Virus record (IMG/VR): IMGVR_UViG_3300025146_000061
Location: 1-25,888 of that record
Direction: 5' to 3' (one strand)
Length of the DNA: 25,888 bases
DNA from: a virus
The translations under genes were made by a program, and so were the position numbers. The stretch's first letter is position 1. Each line of letters opens with the position of its first letter. Positions 3,988 to 20,605 of the stretch are shown here, piece after piece. The notes below the pieces were generated by a model, which searched no databases, was not told the DNA's origin, and saw only the letters and a program-made list of their open reading frames with translations.

Positions 3988-4373
3988 GCCGGGTTCACCA
4001 CGTCCTTCAGGGTGAAGTCGGACGGGGGGATGATCACCCGTCGCTTGCCGCCGATGGTGGCGACCAGGTCGTAGCTGTACTTGCCGGCAGGGGTGGTGGC
4101 GCCGCTGGTGTCGGCCGAAGCCAGAGCGAGCTCGGCCTGCCCCAGCGTGGCGCCGGCCTGAGCCAGCAGCGTGATGCCAGCGCCCACCGACTTGGAGATC
4201 AGCGCCGGGTCGGCGACGCCCGGCGCGGTCTTGACCTGAAACTCCATGGTCGCGCCGGTGAGGTCCTGGCGGCCGCTGTCGTCGGCCTTGGTGACGGTGA
4301 CCCGGAAGACGCGGTCGGCTCCGCGGAAGCCGACGATCGGCACCGGCCGGGGAAGCTGGGCGGGACTGGACAT
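3984..4373 (-). CDS. Ig-like/BppU-N-like phage appendage protein
   Basis: A 129-aa protein starting at ATG 4373, preceded by GGAGGAGG inside the end of the esterase gene and sharing TGATG with it. The pattern of a strand-rich start (FRVTVTKADDSG), then DLTGATMEFQVKTA, SVGAGITLL, a TAPAGKYSYDL-like segment (here TTPAGKYSYDLV) and a closing FTLKDVV strand matches the small beta-sandwich found at the N-terminus of lactococcal-phage BppU baseplate proteins and many phage appendage proteins. It is probably a virion accessory protein that binds or links an appendage. No catalytic residues are apparent. Confidence 0.65.
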   Translation of the reverse strand: MSSPAQLPRPVPIVGFRGADRVFRVTVTKADDSGRQDLTGATMEFQVKTAPGVADPALISKSVGAGITLLAQAGATLGQAELALASADTSGATTPAGKYSYDLVATIGGKRRVIIPPSDFTLKDVVNPA

Positions 4374-5401
4374 CAGACCTCCTCCAGGCTGCAGACCAGA
4401 ACGTCGGGCTCCTCGAGGCCGGCCTGCCAAAGGTCCTCGGCCAGGTCGGCGGCGACCGCGTCGACGTCGGCGAGCTCGCCGACCGGGTCGTCGGCAGCCA
4501 GCTCGGCGCCGAGCTCGTCGGTCGCGACCATGTCGGCCGCCAGCTCGTCGGCGGCCGCCAGCTCGGCGGCGACGTCGCCGAAGCACAGGCCGTTGCCCTT
4601 CAGCGTGCCCAGATCGATGAAGGCGTTGGCCTCGTAGTGATCGTCGTCCCGGAGCGCCAGGCCCTCGGTCGGGATCATGATGACGCCCGGGGTCGTGCTG
4701 GCGAAGTAGGCCTGCTCGGCGCGGACGGTGGCCACGTGCGGAGCGACCACACCGCTGGGCAGCTGGTCGAAGATCAGCCAGGCGAAGTAGCCCAGGTCGG
4801 CGAGCCAGCGGTCGCTCAGGGCGGTCATGTTCTCGGCGTACAGTCCGGCGGGACCTGCGCCGTTGGCGTCGCCGTTGCCCTGGCACCAGTCCAGGGCCAG
4901 CACCTTGGCGCCGATCTCCAGGGTCTTCTGCCGGCAGAAGTTGAAGGCCTGGGTGTACAGGTTCTCCGACTCGCCCGCAGGCGGAGCCGCGGTCGGTTTC
5001 CAGTGGACGTTGAGGCTGGTGCCGTTGCGCGCCCACTTGATCAGGTAGATGGCGCCGTCGCCGTAGAACTCGCGCAGCCTCCGGCCCATGGACAGCTCGG
5101 CGCCGAACGACTTGCGAGCCGACGCCGGGTTGCTGCCGATGACCCGGTGCGGCTGCAGCGCCTCGAACGGGTAGACGTCGATCGTCGGTCCGACCGCCTG
5201 GCTGCACAGGGTCTGTGCGAGCTGCACGCTGGGATAGGCGTCCTTGTAGGCGGCGTTGCCGGCGGACAGGTCGTCGGTGCTGGCGCCGCCCACCTGGTTG
5301 GACTGGCCCCACATCCAGATCGCGAGCGGCTGTCCCATGCAAGGCTCCTCGGCCGGCGCGCAGCCGGCCAGCACGACCAGGGCGAGGGCGAGCGCGCGCA
5401 T
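4373..5401 (-). CDS. SGNH/sialate O-acetylesterase-like hydrolase with lipoprotein signal
   Basis: This 342-aa protein begins with an apparent lipoprotein signal peptide: MRALALALVVLAGC, with lipobox LAGC (11-14) and Cys14 as acylation site. The body has blocks of the sialate O-acetylesterase (DUF303/CE6) branch of SGNH hydrolases: WGQSNQVGG (31-39, nucleophile Ser34), KWARNGTSL (122-130), CQGNGDAN (173-180, where QGExDA is usual, so Glu is replaced by Asn) and DDDHYEA (252-258, catalytic Asp/His). It would remove acetyl esters from surface sugars. The C-terminus (about 276-325) is a low-complexity Ala/Asp/Glu repeat. The ATG shares TGATG with the upstream gene. It sits among appendage genes, which suggests a virion enzyme, but the export signal points to action in the host envelope, for example lysogenic conversion. 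Substrate is unknown. Confidence 0.75.
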   Translation of the reverse strand: MRALALALVVLAGCAPAEEPCMGQPLAIWMWGQSNQVGGASTDDLSAGNAAYKDAYPSVQLAQTLCSQAVGPTIDVYPFEALQPHRVIGSNPASARKSFGAELSMGRRLREFYGDGAIYLIKWARNGTSLNVHWKPTAAPPAGESENLYTQAFNFCRQKTLEIGAKVLALDWCQGNGDANGAGPAGLYAENMTALSDRWLADLGYFAWLIFDQLPSGVVAPHVATVRAEQAYFASTTPGVIMIPTEGLALRDDDHYEANAFIDLGTLKGNGLCFGDVAAELAAADELAADMVATDELGAELAADDPVGELADVDAVAADLAEDLWQAGLEEPDVLVCSLEEV

Positions 5402-6117
5402 CACGCGGCCTTGACCTCGATCGCCAGCGCCGCGCACTGCTGTAGCGCCGCCCAGGTGGCCGTGCAGTCGCGCTGGTTGCGCGCCCACTCGGTCTCCATC
5501 CGGATCACCGAGGTCAAGACGTTCTGATCGTCGATCTCGGCGAAGTCGGCGTCGGGCACGATGTCCTGGTTCACTGCACCGATGAAGACCGCCAGGTTCA
5601 AGTTGTTCGGGTGCTCCAGCGGGGCGAGCGTCGGAGCGGCCAGGCTGAGGGACGAGCCGTTGGTCGTGCCCGCCGGCGCCTGCACGACGCAGCTACCCGA
5701 CGCCGGCGCATCCTTCATCGAGGCGAAGCGCCAGATGATGGCGCTCTGCACGTTGCCGGCGAAGTCGATCTGCACCGTGCCCGAGCCCGGGACGGCCAGA
5801 CCCGGCGCCTCGAAGGCGGTCACCCGGCGCGAGCCGATGATCACGCTCTGCTTGGCCGTCCACGCCAGATTGAGCCCGGCGTTCGAGGTCACGGTCGGCT
5901 GCGGCGCGACCGCGCCCTGGTGGCTCACCCACAGGATGACAGGCCGGTTCGCCGGTGGCGTGATGGCACCGGTGGCGAACGCCGCTGCGTCGGCCGTGGA
6001 CGTGCCGGCGCCGTTGGCCGCAAGGTTCTCCGGCGACGGCAGGAGCCGGCTGTCGCCGTTCAGGTTCGGCCGGAGCCCGACGTCGAGCCCGCTCTTGAGG
6101 CCGACGATCAGGCTCAT
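5401..6117 (-). CDS. Phage structural/appendage protein, beta-rich
   Basis: This 238-aa protein starts at ATG 6117, overlapping the previous stop by ATGA. It contains VILWVSHQGAVAPQPTV, GLNLAWTAKQSVIIGSRRV and PGSGTVQIDFAGNVQSAI, alternating strands that resemble the beta-sandwich domains common in phage appendage proteins. The same order of motifs appears in the N-domain of the repeat protein at 628-1686, so the two may be diverged paralogues. No enzyme motif, membrane segment or signal peptide is seen. It lies directly before the esterase gene and may form part of the structure that carries or accompanies it. Confidence 0.6.
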   Translation of the reverse strand: MSLIVGLKSGLDVGLRPNLNGDSRLLPSPENLAANGAGTSTADAAAFATGAITPPANRPVILWVSHQGAVAPQPTVTSNAGLNLAWTAKQSVIIGSRRVTAFEAPGLAVPGSGTVQIDFAGNVQSAIIWRFASMKDAPASGSCVVQAPAGTTNGSSLSLAAPTLAPLEHPNNLNLAVFIGAVNQDIVPDADFAEIDDQNVLTSVIRMETEWARNQRDCTATWAALQQCAALAIEVKAA

Positions 6118-15283: not shown

Positions 15284-16402
15284 TCAGGCGACGCGGTCGC
15301 AGGTCATCGCCATCGAGAAGACCTTGCTGGACTGCGCGCCGTCGCGGGTCCAGGAGATCTCGGCGTAGTAGGTGCGGTCGACTTCGATGGTGTGGTTGGG
15401 CGCGGTGCCGACGGACTGGTCGCCGTCGAGGGAGTTGGTGGCCGAGCCCAGGGGAAACCTGCCGGTGCCGGTGGACGTGTAGAAGAGTTCGACCTTCAGG
15501 GTGGCCACGCCGGCCGCGATGCTGTTGAGCGCCCGGACGCTGACCGACTTGAGCCGGCTGCCCACGACCATGGGGCCCAGACCGACGACGATCGATCCGG
15601 TCGTGTTGGTGAACAGGATCGACAGGTCGGCCAGGTCGACCACCGGCGCGACGGCGCCGAGGTGGTGCGCGCCGATCAGCGGCACCATGTACACGCGGTT
15701 GGCGTGCTTGGTGTCGGCCTGGCCGGTGGTGAGGGCGCCGGCCACCAGGCTGGTGGCGGTTGGATCGTCCAGGGCAGGCGACCGGGTGGTCGCCAGGACG
15801 CCGGCGGCCGACATGGTGATCAGGCTGGTCGAGCCCGGCACCGCCGCCGGCATGGTCATCGCGTAGCTCGCCACCAGAGCGGCCGGCGACTTCAGGGTGA
15901 CCTTGTTGACGATGCCGGCCGCGACCTCGCGTAGCTCGATGTCGCCGATGTTGAGCTTGGCGGCGTGGTTCACCTCCTGGGTGAAGGTGAAGGTCTTGGT
16001 GGCGTTGGAGTAGCTGGCGTCGGCGTTCACGCCGCCGGCGCCGTAGTCGCCGGTGAAGCCCTTGACCGCGGCGGCGTTCAGGGCGCCGTTCTTGGTGAGC
16101 TGGATCGGCGTGCCGTTGCCGTCGGTCCACCAGAAGTCGCCGCCCGCGTCGGCCTGGGCCTTGCGCACGTGGGCGGCGCCGCTGGCGATCGCGGCCAGGG
16201 CGGCCAGCCGCAAGGCGCCGACGTCCTCGAGCAGCTGGGCGTTGACGTCCAGGGTCTGGTTGACGTCGATCTCGTCGGGGGTCACCAGGGGCTCGACGTC
16301 GTCGACCAGCTTCTGGATCGCCGTGTTGAGCGTCGAGGCGTAGGCCGGGCCCGGCGAGACACTCGGGGTCGGCAGGACGACATTCAGGGGCTTGCCAGGC
16401 AT
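15284..16402 (-). CDS. Tail fibre/appendage protein, 372 aa
   Basis: This 372-aa protein starts at an ATG touching the TAG of the preceding gene. The N-terminal part is helical (TLNTAIQKLVDDVEPL), then comes FWWTDGNGTPIQLTKNGALN (residues 90-109), a motif found in phage fibre proteins, followed by beta-rich sequence such as NATKTFTFTQEVNHAAKLNIG that suggests a trimeric shaft. The C-terminal part (about 240-372) looks like a beta-sandwich head (YMVPLIGAHHLG, KSVSVRALNSIAAG, YYAEISWTRDG). It is probably an attached fibre or appendage involved in host contact. The pairing with the 109-aa protein immediately upstream is seen in other podoviruses. Confidence 0.7.
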   Translation of the reverse strand: MPGKPLNVVLPTPSVSPGPAYASTLNTAIQKLVDDVEPLVTPDEIDVNQTLDVNAQLLEDVGALRLAALAAIASGAAHVRKAQADAGGDFWWTDGNGTPIQLTKNGALNAAAVKGFTGDYGAGGVNADASYSNATKTFTFTQEVNHAAKLNIGDIELREVAAGIVNKVTLKSPAALVASYAMTMPAAVPGSTSLITMSAAGVLATTRSPALDDPTATSLVAGALTTGQADTKHANRVYMVPLIGAHHLGAVAPVVDLADLSILFTNTTGSIVVGLGPMVVGSRLKSVSVRALNSIAAGVATLKVELFYTSTGTGRFPLGSATNSLDGDQSVGTAPNHTIEVDRTYYAEISWTRDGAQSSKVFSMAMTCDRVA

Positions 16403-18083: not shown

Positions 18084-19439
18084 TTACAGCGCGCAGACGC
18101 CGTTGCGGCCGGGGCCGAACACGGCCATGTTGCACCAGGCGCGGACACGACCCTCGACGCCGTCGTCCCCGGACTGGCGGATCTCGACGTTGCCGTCGTC
18201 GTCCACCACGTGGGGCAGCGGGTTGAGGTGGCGCAGCATGATCGAGCTCATGGTGAGCACGTAGCCGCGGTCCTCCGGACAGTCCGGCTCCGCGAACACG
18301 TTGAAGCTGCCACCCGAGGTGAACAGCTTGATCGACGGGAAGCCGACCTTGGCCTCCATGCCCGGGTCGCGCACGACCTTGTCGCCCAGCTCGAGCTCCA
18401 TCTGGGTCCACTTGGTGTGGTTGATGAAGGCGTGGCTGGGCCGGCCGCCCGAGACGGTGCCGATCAGCTCGCCGAGCTCGATCAGGTTCTCGTGGATGGG
18501 ACGGGCGGCGTTGTTGATGCGCCAGCCGGCCAGGAGCTCCGGGTCGGCCGAACGGTCGACGCCGAAGTGGTTGTCGCCCCCGGTCGGGGCGGTGAGCGGC
18601 AGCCAGGCCGCCAGGCCCGCGATCGACAGGTCGTAGTCGCCCTCGACGAACAGATAGTCGTCGTCGGCGCCGGTGCCGATGCCCGCGGTGTAGTTGCCGG
18701 TGAGGGTCACGGTCCCCGCCTGGCGCTGCACCGACAGCACCTTCACGGTGCCGGCCTTGACCGCGCCGCCGCCGTCGGCGGTGCTGCCGACCAGCACCAT
18801 GTCCTTCTGGAAGTGCCGGGTGTCGGTCTTGTTGTACAGGGTGATGACCGCGGTGGCCGACCCCGTCTTCAGGCGACCGATCGAGCCCGACGCCTTCCGG
18901 AACAGCGAGCGGCTGATCGAGTTGCCGAGCTCGGCGATGATGCCGTCGTACTCGGACTTCTTCAGCTCCGCGAACGCTCCGGCCTGGCCCTTGGACTGGG
19001 CCATGGCCAGAGCGTCCATGGTGAGCACGCCGTAGTCCTTCGTGATGTCGAGCTTGAAGGCCTTGGACTGCGACGCCGACACGTTGGCCTGGGCCTTCGA
19101 GAAGGTCCGGCTCCGGCCCATCGGGTTGCCGAACATGACCGGCACCTTCCAGGTGTCGCCCACCCACTTGTCCTTCTTGGGGACCAGGGTGAAGAACGCA
19201 TGGTTCTTGATGGCGACGTTGGTCGGCTCCGGGCCGTCGTAGAGCTCCTTGAGGAACGCGGCGAAGGTGGTCTTGGTCGAAGCGGAGACGCCCATGACGG
19301 CGCCGCCTCCCAGGACCTGATGGATGTCCGACCAGATCAGCGCGCCGCCCAGGATGAGCAGCAGGCCGAATGCGAACAAGGCCAGGCGGATGGGGCTCCG
19401 GCGGATCGCGCCGGGCAGATTCTTCAGTGCGTTGAACAC
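18084..19439 (-). CDS. Major capsid protein, with hydrophobic N-terminal extension
   Basis: This 451-aa product (403 aa if started at the internal ATG 19295) is the major head protein: it follows the scaffold and precedes the decoration candidate. The body has an N-terminal region with WKVPVMFGNPMGRSRTFSKA, a central region with HENLIELGELIG and HAFINHTKWTQMELELGDK, and a C-terminal RGYVLTMSSIMLRHLNPLP region, matching podoviral coat proteins presumed to have the HK97 fold. Residues 1-48 are unexpected: a basic start (KNLPGAIRRSPIR) and a membrane-like helix at about 19-36 (LALFAFGLLLILGGALIW). GTG 19439 has AAGGGAG seven bases upstream; ATG 19295 has GGGAGG ten bases upstream. Which start makes the virion form is unresolved. 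The extension could also be removed by a protease. Confidence 0.85.
   Translation of the reverse strand: MFNALKNLPGAIRRSPIRLALFAFGLLLILGGALIWSDIHQVLGGGAVMGVSASTKTTFAAFLKELYDGPEPTNVAIKNHAFFTLVPKKDKWVGDTWKVPVMFGNPMGRSRTFSKAQANVSASQSKAFKLDITKDYGVLTMDALAMAQSKGQAGAFAELKKSEYDGIIAELGNSISRSLFRKASGSIGRLKTGSATAVITLYNKTDTRHFQKDMVLVGSTADGGGAVKAGTVKVLSVQRQAGTVTLTGNYTAGIGTGADDDYLFVEGDYDLSIAGLAAWLPLTAPTGGDNHFGVDRSADPELLAGWRINNAARPIHENLIELGELIGTVSGGRPSHAFINHTKWTQMELELGDKVVRDPGMEAKVGFPSIKLFTSGGSFNVFAEPDCPEDRGYVLTMSSIMLRHLNPLPHVVDDDGNVEIRQSGDDGVEGRVRAWCNMAVFGPGRNGVCAL
19306..19311 (-). promoter_or_regulatory. Ribosome-binding site for the internal capsid start (ATG 19295)
   Basis: GGGAGG on the minus strand lies ten bases before ATG 19295, inside the long form of the capsid gene. 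It would allow translation of the 403-aa form without the hydrophobic leader. The spacing is slightly long, and purine-rich codons such as GGA or GGT for Gly could create it by chance. Confidence 0.4.
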
Positions 19440-19446
19440 AGCCTGT

Positions 19447-19453
19447 CTCCCTT
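19447..19453 (-). promoter_or_regulatory. Ribosome-binding site for the upstream capsid start (GTG 19439)
   Basis: AAGGGAG on the minus strand is separated by seven bases from GTG 19439. It sits in the 32-base gap between scaffold and capsid genes, where no other coding sequence explains it. It supports real use of the upstream start and thus of the membrane-like leader. Confidence 0.6.
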
Positions 19454-19471: not shown

Positions 19472-20605
19472 CTACTGCTGTTCCAGCAGCCGGGCGGCGC
19501 GCTCGATGCGCTCCTCCGGCGTGAGATCCCGCCTGCTCTTGCGGCTCGTGTGGGTGTCCGTCTCTTCGTTGGAGAGGGTCGGCGCAGGCTTCGCGTCGGG
19601 CGCCGCAGGCTTGTTCGCGCTGGAGGGCTTGTCGGCAGGGGTCGGGTACAGCTTGCGGAAGGGGGCCAGTTCGCGTTTCAGGTTCTCTTCGAGCTCGGCG
19701 GCGAGCTCGGCAGGGGTCGGGGGCTTGGCGGTCGGATCGGCCTCGGCCTTGCGGGCGGCCATCTCGTAGAGCGCATCGACCAGCTGGTCGGGCAGCTCCT
19801 CGGCCAGGGCCTGGACGTGCGGCAGGGCGCGGTGCTCGGGCTTGCCATCGGCGCCGGCCAGCTCGACCTTGAGGATCTCGCCGGCCTTGGGCACCGCGAC
19901 GCCACGGATCTGGGTCTTGTAGCCGGCGATCAGTCGCTCGTCCGCGGCGGCCTGGGTGGCGCGCTGCTCGCGCTCGGCGGCCTGCTGCTCCCTGGCCTCG
20001 ATCGCGGCCATGCGCTCGTCCAGGGCGCGCTGGCGCTTGCGCTCGGCCAGCTCGGGCGGCGCCTTGTCGCCCATGGCCTCGAAGTAGAGCAGCTCGCCGA
20101 TCTCGGCGAAGCCGTCCTTGATGCCCAGCGCCTTGAACAGGGCGACCGGGTCGGCCTTGGCCATGGCGGCCGCGCGCTCGACCAGCTCGACCTGGGCGAG
20201 CTTGCCCTCGAGCTCCTTCTCGCGGGCAGCCAGCTTGGTCTCGCGCTCGGTGGACGCCCGCTGCAGCTCGCGCTCGCGGCGGGCGATCGCGGCCAGCTGG
20301 GGCGACACCTGCGCCGCGGCGGCCGCGGCCGGGTCGGCCGGCTTGGCCGCCTGGGCGGCGGCGGCCGCAGCGGCAGCGGCATCGCCCGGGGCGACGGTCG
20401 GGTCGCCCTCGGGCGCATCGGCGCCGGTCGGATTGCCGTCGACGTCGGTGCCGACGTCGGGCACCGCCAGGTCCAGCCCGGCGGCCAGCATGGCGGCGGC
20501 GCGCGCGGTCCGGTCGGGCGCCTCGGCGCCGGCGGCGGTGTCGGTGGTCTCGGAGGCCGAGGCGGCCGGGGTGGTCGGGGACGGGGTGCTGGCCTGGGTC
20601 TTCAC
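19472..20605 (-). CDS. Capsid scaffolding protein
   Basis: This 377-aa protein starts at GTG 20605, with GAGG nine bases upstream. It has an Ala/Pro/Asp-rich disordered N-terminus (1-100), a long charged helical region (about 105-240, with runs such as AAREKELEGKLAQVELVE and AIEAREQQAAEREQRA), and a basic C-terminus (DLTPEERIERAARLLEQQ) of the type that binds coat protein. Position between portal and major capsid, high helix content and low complexity fit a scaffold that organises procapsid assembly and then leaves. No Ser or Asp protease motif is visible, so a separate head protease is not evident in this window. Confidence 0.75.
   Translation of the reverse strand: MKTQASTPSPTTPAASASETTDTAAGAEAPDRTARAAAMLAAGLDLAVPDVGTDVDGNPTGADAPEGDPTVAPGDAAAAAAAAAQAAKPADPAAAAAAQVSPQLAAIARRERELQRASTERETKLAAREKELEGKLAQVELVERAAAMAKADPVALFKALGIKDGFAEIGELLYFEAMGDKAPPELAERKRQRALDERMAAIEAREQQAAEREQRATQAAADERLIAGYKTQIRGVAVPKAGEILKVELAGADGKPEHRALPHVQALAEELPDQLVDALYEMAARKAEADPTAKPPTPAELAAELEENLKRELAPFRKLYPTPADKPSSANKPAAPDAKPAPTLSNEETDTHTSRKSRRDLTPEERIERAARLLEQQ

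Follow-up and report, generated by a model that had tools for sequence, protein, structure and literature searches.

A membrane-like coding leader on a tailed-phage capsid gene suggests long and short capsid forms

Introduction

Tailed-phage capsid proteins are expected to be soluble, and the delta domain of HK97 gp5, an N-terminal extension of the capsid protein, is a cytosolic scaffold. Dual starts that yield a longer and a shorter product are known from phage lambda, both in the S holin (S107/S105) and in the nested in-frame genes C and Nu3. The capsid gene described here resembles each of these systems in part. It shares an N-terminal extension with HK97 gp5, but the extension is short and membrane-like and a scaffold-like gene is present at the locus. 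It shares two in-frame starts, with possible use of both, with the lambda genes, yet it encodes a major capsid protein and its two products would differ by a whole membrane segment. Capsids of the SU10 or PHROG_14242 kind are alike in fold, in their place after a scaffold-like gene and in the nearby SU10_adaptor and P22-type portal genes; in contrast to the gene studied here, no membrane-like N-terminal leader is found on such capsids in 53 other contigs.

Two reports bear on whether a capsid protein could tolerate or exploit a membrane segment. An engineered phage, T7::PhoE, in which a signal peptide is fused to the capsid protein, is described as being as infective as wild type and as carrying lipid (PMC5157022). 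The likeness lies in the signal peptide on a tailed-phage major capsid protein, although the construct is man-made and the part of that report drawn on here does not state which end is fused (PMC5157022); since the fusion phage is reported to be infective, joining a capsid protein to a signal peptide is not necessarily lethal (PMC5157022). In phage T4, head assembly is reported to begin at the inner membrane, where the portal gp20 is attached together with its chaperone gp40 (PMC9958956). There the membrane-attached part is the portal and not the capsid protein; T4 makes a membrane-tied capsid form thinkable without being evidence for it (PMC9958956). Among the titles and abstract openings of the literature matches listed, we found no natural membrane leader on a tailed-phage major capsid protein, although one may be in print.

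Results

The capsid gene lies in a tailed-phage head module

The window, by which we mean the whole stretch of DNA analyzed, is a 25,888-base IMG/VR virus record with a GC content of 71%. Its minus strand carries a tailed-phage head module comprising a Terminase_6N large subunit, a P22-type portal, a scaffold-like gene, the capsid gene and an SU10_adaptor protein, the last four in the order portal, scaffold-like gene, capsid, SU10_adaptor protein. The scaffold-like gene (19472..20605, minus strand; 377 aa, GTG start, stop codon at 19474..19472) is an open reading frame directly upstream of the capsid gene, and its position points to a scaffold function; comparison of its product with PHROGs and Pfam assigned no family. 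From its stop codon, 32 nt lead to a GTG at 19439 that could begin the capsid reading frame and 176 nt to the capsid ATG at 19295. No promoter-like or terminator-like sites were found at the intervening insert, and the one terminator-like site recorded, at 18815 on the plus strand, is no more than chance would give. A search of the window found neither a tRNA nor an Rfam match at gathering score, which speaks against a regulatory RNA or tRNA.

Two other reading frames of the window were also noted. Downstream of the head genes, the protein encoded at 4373-5488 (minus strand; scanned as 4376-5404) contains a SASA carbohydrate-esterase domain (Pfam PF03629, E 8.2e-15) and may act on host surface sugars. 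At the contig end, an open frame at positions 1-192 of the plus strand, opposite to the head genes (HGLRGTHSSLARAAG...LGHA), presumably resembles the C-terminal end of a tyrosine recombinase; a Pfam search with its 63 residues returned no match.

The capsid body is predicted to adopt the HK97 fold

The major capsid protein proper (18084..19295, minus strand; 403 aa from the ATG at 19295..19293) was recognized through PHROG_14242, AlphaFold modelling and its relatives. When the 451-aa product of the longer reading frame was searched, the match to the PHROG_14242 major head protein (E 3.5e-8) covered residues 54-278 only, and Pfam gave no family for the capsid protein. The AlphaFold model of the 451 aa reached a pLDDT of 81.8 with 43 sequences (46 with 12 sequences); the structure alignment took 41 of the 53 relatives described below, truncated, identical or near-identical ones being excluded. 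Foldseek related the model with a probability of 1.00 to the capsids of SU10, Pa223 and HK97, with a modest whole-chain TMq of about 0.35-0.45, and VIA-align matched it to A-1(L) (Z 19.9, rmsd 7.2, 288 aligned) and to HK97 1ohg (Z 16.8, rmsd 2.5, 234 aligned). On these models the capsid body is a major capsid protein with a predicted HK97 fold. The solved capsids align mainly from residue 52 onward. Ahead of that point, a helix spanning residues 16-39 was modelled with modest confidence (pLDDT of 65, 72 and 51 for the 10-residue blocks of residues 11-40), and residues 36-54 have a pLDDT below 50. Because the body aligns from residue 52 and the linker is of low confidence, the leader looks like a tethered addition and not like part of the shell fold.

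Two in-frame starts flank a membrane-like leader

The GTG at 19437..19439 (minus strand) and the ATG at 19295 share one frame with no stop between them, and initiation at the GTG adds 48 residues to give 451 aa. Each start is preceded by its own ribosome-binding site: AAGGGAG (19447..19453, minus strand) with 7 nt between GGAG and the GTG, and GGGAGG (19306..19311, minus strand), located within the leader codons, with 10 nt between GGAGG and the ATG. At the GTG site, an anti-SD duplex of -8.4 and an opening cost of 14.9 give a net value of 6.5, which is lower (better) than that of eight of the 11 other gene starts in the window; AAGGGAG contains neither GGAGG nor AGGAG and fails the strict motif, the support for the GTG being its duplex energy. 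The ATG site has the stronger anti-SD match (duplex -10.2) but is more folded than the GTG site (opening cost 21.5, net 11.3), and this tighter predicted folding could favour the long form. Of 83 other in-frame ATGs inside 12 genes, only one is preceded by GGAGG or AGGAG at a similar distance, which makes the site of ATG 19295 unusual. GGGAGG moreover employs GGA, a rare glycine codon (22 of 553 glycine codons in 12 genes), and its presence despite that codon, with the 1-in-83 rarity, is consistent with the retention of an old start.

The 48-codon leader (19296..19439, minus strand) is divided into a basic stretch (residues 1-18, net charge +4), a hydrophobic helix (residues 19-36) and a Gly-rich linker (residues 37-48), with a charge of -1 after the helix. 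The predicted transmembrane or signal-anchor helix (19332..19385, minus strand; residues 19-36, LALFAFGLLLILGGALIW) is indicated by the Kyte-Doolittle scale, a dG-like score and AlphaFold. Its maximum Kyte-Doolittle mean of 2.47 over 18 residues was equalled by none of the 1126 stop-free dinucleotide shuffles among 2000 made and by none of 463 stop-free off-frame windows of 12 genes, so the hydrophobicity of the leader is beyond chance. On an approximate scale the helix also has the lowest dG-like value anywhere in the 451 aa (-2.84, whereas the best segment of the body has +6.5), and the combination of a hydrophobic stretch of about 18-22 residues with a basic N-flank, as in a signal-anchor, is present in the leader. 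An earlier, sequence-only reading of this DNA had described a GTG with a well-spaced AAGGGAG, an ATG with its own GGGAGG and, between them, 48 added residues with a basic stretch and a hydrophobic helix. The 7-nt and 10-nt spacers, the shared capsid frame, the +4 charge and the Kyte-Doolittle value bear out these particulars, and the sites, the helix and the codon signal described next together uphold its broader claim of two plausible starts around a membrane-like leader.

The leader has the codon usage of a translated sequence

The capsid frame stays open for 515 codons above GTG 19439, so an open frame alone is uninformative. Codon usage was scored with a log-odds model trained on the window's own genes, which also supply the true coding windows; the windows overlap, and the figures are descriptive. 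Read in the capsid frame, the leader has a score of 0.424 per codon; the remaining two forward frames give -0.95 and -1.06, and the opposite strand gives -0.13 to -1.35. The mean for true coding windows of equal length is 0.50 and that for off-frame windows -1.01, and no off-frame window scores as high as the leader. The synonymous-only score of the leader is 0.17, at the 13th percentile of true windows (mean 0.28), and is matched by none of 976 overlapping off-frame windows. The third-position GC of the leader also speaks against an untranslated stretch.

The position of the signal was followed with a 15-codon running score in the capsid frame, which rises from about -1 (centre 19460) through -0.35 (19445) and -0.20 (19430) to 0.14 (19415), reaches 0.65-0.72 at 19370-19340 and then remains above zero into the capsid. 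From centre 19445 onward the capsid frame outscores the other two frames, and from 19415 onward its score is positive. Because the running scores rise there, the coding signal sets in close to GTG 19439 and well ahead of ATG 19295. It is weak over roughly the first 20 leader codons (0.09-0.29, under the coding mean) and strong in the helix region. As a control, the 47 in-frame codons upstream of eleven gene starts were scored: five stretches were positive (0.18-0.38), each with one stop inside and presumably reflecting a preceding gene in the same frame, and only the capsid's upstream stretch, with the leader at 0.42 and the preceding gene in another frame, was positive without a stop. The leader thus has this genome's codon usage in the capsid frame only; it looks translated and is better supported as coding than the sequence-only reading could have known.

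A close strain keeps the leader and the sampled relatives lack it

A separate IMG/VR record, L001, shares 96.4% identity with the window across 5.5 kb. The two starts, their binding sites and the open frame are all preserved in it, and its leader has a codon score of 0.428. Loss of a stop through sequencing error is unlikely, since this separate record, 3.6% different, has the same frame. The two leaders differ by two bases, both changes being nonsynonymous and conservative (L to V, F to L) and none silent, and the capsid body differs by 10 silent and three other changes; with just two changes, selection on the leader is neither shown nor excluded. Elsewhere in the comparison with L001, a 372-aa gene of the window (15284-16402, minus strand) differs at 10.3% of bases (64 nonsynonymous and 51 synonymous changes) and the genes upstream of it at 0.6-2.1%; this gene may encode a fast-evolving or recombined tail or receptor-binding protein.

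Related contigs were gathered with portal, terminase and capsid queries, and a capsid HMM was searched in 83 sequences (82 loci and the window), nine duplicate or window-copy loci having been excluded beforehand and a few duplicates staying. A capsid was found in 57 of the 83, which, less the window, L001 and the duplicates L041 and L052, left 53 contigs (52 from IMG/VR and one MAG) with 48 distinct N-termini, in each of which the start codon was chosen by position and ribosome-binding site. In all 53 the capsid starts within six codons of the position of Met49, and none carries a membrane-like leader, no 18-residue segment exceeding a Kyte-Doolittle mean of 1.15 in the first 70 residues. An in-frame stop occurs within 18 codons upstream of the family start in 51 of the 53; in the exceptions, L004 and L034, the open upstream frame (68 and 61 codons, respectively) is not hydrophobic. 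The remaining 26 sequences gave no HMM capsid match, and among them L010 shows, by tblastn, a 41-codon capsid start that is also without a leader. Since the other 53 capsids start at the Met49 position without a leader, homology indicates that the capsid proper starts at Met49 and that the leader is not part of the family's capsid.

The sequence-only reading had held that homologues all starting at the equivalent of Met49, with no conservation of the leader codons, would mark the upstream start as an artefact. The homologues do start there, but the artefact does not follow, because the leader has codon bias in the capsid frame, GTG 19439 is close to the point where the coding signal rises, and the leader is preserved in a second strain.

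The slot between the two genes varies within the family. An HMM grown from the scaffold-like protein matched open reading frames in 62 of the 83 sequences. In 49 of the 53 relatives a match precedes the capsid, and the gap between the two is 2-65 nt in 40, 89-91 nt in three, 163-182 nt in four, and 374 and 708 nt in one each. The four gaps of 163-182 nt (L069, L070, L071 and L074) are without a membrane-like ORF. The 708-nt gap, in L004, contains an HNH_3 endonuclease ORF on the opposite strand (L004:7842-8408, minus strand), which indicates that the slot takes inserts in this family. No small membrane ORF like the leader was found in the slot of 12 relative loci, whose gaps were translated in the three forward frames and, for 11 loci, in all six; Kyte-Doolittle values there peaked at 1.41 in a forward frame (L004) and at 1.94 overall (L034, opposite-strand frame), against 2.47 for the leader.

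In a tree built from 43 capsids, the window pairs with L001, with strong support and on a long branch, which makes a single gain of the leader the simplest reading. The closest capsid relatives beyond L001 are at most 44% identical. With the 48-residue leader as query, viral contigs searched with short peptide patterns yielded no relative except the L001 contig, and phages, plasmids, PHROGs and Pfam yielded none; this search covered viral and plasmid sequences and the two family databases, and the leader may still be of host origin. Named phages searched by tblastn with the 451 aa and the 403-aa body, or with the portal and adaptor, returned nothing; the terminase found 37 records, every one below 60% identity and with less than 80% of the query covered. 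No relative came from scanning viral sequences with only the terminase, nor from an initial genome-contig scan with the capsid body. A MAG contig (L018, JAHEZQ010000039.1), with related portal (35%), terminase (28%) and capsid (30%), is binned with Melioribacter, a possible host hint for this one distant relative only.

Discussion

The locus has both starts, a leader with a coding signal and a short form homologous to the family's capsids, and the sampled relatives have no such leader. This extra membrane-like coding front end suggests long and short capsid forms. Short of an even chance, we tentatively favour a lineage-specific in-frame insertion with both a membrane-anchored 451-aa and a normal 403-aa protein being made. 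In this lineage, about 140 bases coding for a membrane-anchor segment would have been inserted in frame into the gap between the scaffold-like gene and the capsid gene. Initiation at GTG 19439 would then produce a 451-residue capsid protein with an N-terminal signal-anchor, N-in by its charges, and the kept family start ATG 19295 a 403-residue assembly-competent capsid protein. The short form would build the shell, and the long form, at the inner membrane, could anchor or nucleate assembly, bring lipid with it or undergo trimming.

The charges (+4 before and -1 after the helix) imply an N-in orientation in which the capsid body would cross the membrane, which should harm assembly; this makes a minor, trimmed or regulatory role more plausible for the long form than that of bulk coat, whereas the folding energies alone argue the opposite way, towards the long form. 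That the long form is a minor, membrane-anchored product which ties prohead assembly to the inner membrane, seeds it there or brings lipid into the shell, with the internal start supplying the bulk coat, is a more specific and rather doubtful version of our favoured reading.

Other explanations account for parts of the same evidence. Use of GTG 19439 only, giving a 451-residue precursor whose leader stays or is cut after membrane contact, would suit a GTG site whose predicted accessibility exceeds that of the ATG site, a leader that looks coding and the engineered T7, reported to be infective and lipid-carrying with a signal peptide on its capsid protein (PMC5157022). We consider it unlikely, given an internal GGGAGG and ATG exactly at the family's start, the absence of the leader from 53 of 53 sampled relatives and the fact that no maturation protease was recognized among the 17 window proteins scanned with PHROGs and Pfam, a scan narrower than a full search. 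The leader might instead be a small membrane protein of its own, moron-like and concerned, for example, with exclusion or lysis timing, that has no stop and is fused as a by-product to a capsid made from ATG 19295. The slot does take inserts in relatives, as with the HNH_3 ORF of L004, and the leader is coding-like with no relatives found, but neither strain has a stop, without which a separate peptide could be released only by a protease, and the insert shows neither a promoter-like nor a terminator-like site; we regard this account as improbable.

That the leader is an untranslated intergenic stretch, with the capsid made from ATG 19295 only, is in keeping with the family start in all 53 other contigs, with the cheapness of open frames at 71% GC (515 codons further up), with the 163-182-nt gaps of four other contigs that hold no membrane-like ORF and with leader changes that both alter the amino acid. 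The codon bias, the third-position GC, the place of the signal rise and a synonymous score reached by no off-frame window all tell against it, and we judge it quite improbable. Least credible by far is the delta-domain-like internal scaffold removed on maturation, which the sequence-only reading had listed among its options: the leader is indeed an N-terminal extension of an HK97-fold capsid, but a scaffold-like gene lies directly upstream, the leader stands outside the family's capsid, being absent from all 53 relatives, and it resembles a membrane anchor.

Under the favoured reading of an insertion with both forms made, the case would show how an essential structural gene can acquire a new N-terminus and still retain its original start internally. 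Should the long form prove absent or inert, the lesson would be one of caution, since codon usage by itself can single out a private insert that may have no function. If the capsid gene of a natural lineage does carry a translated membrane segment, it would offer a clean test of coat-mediated, membrane-tied assembly.
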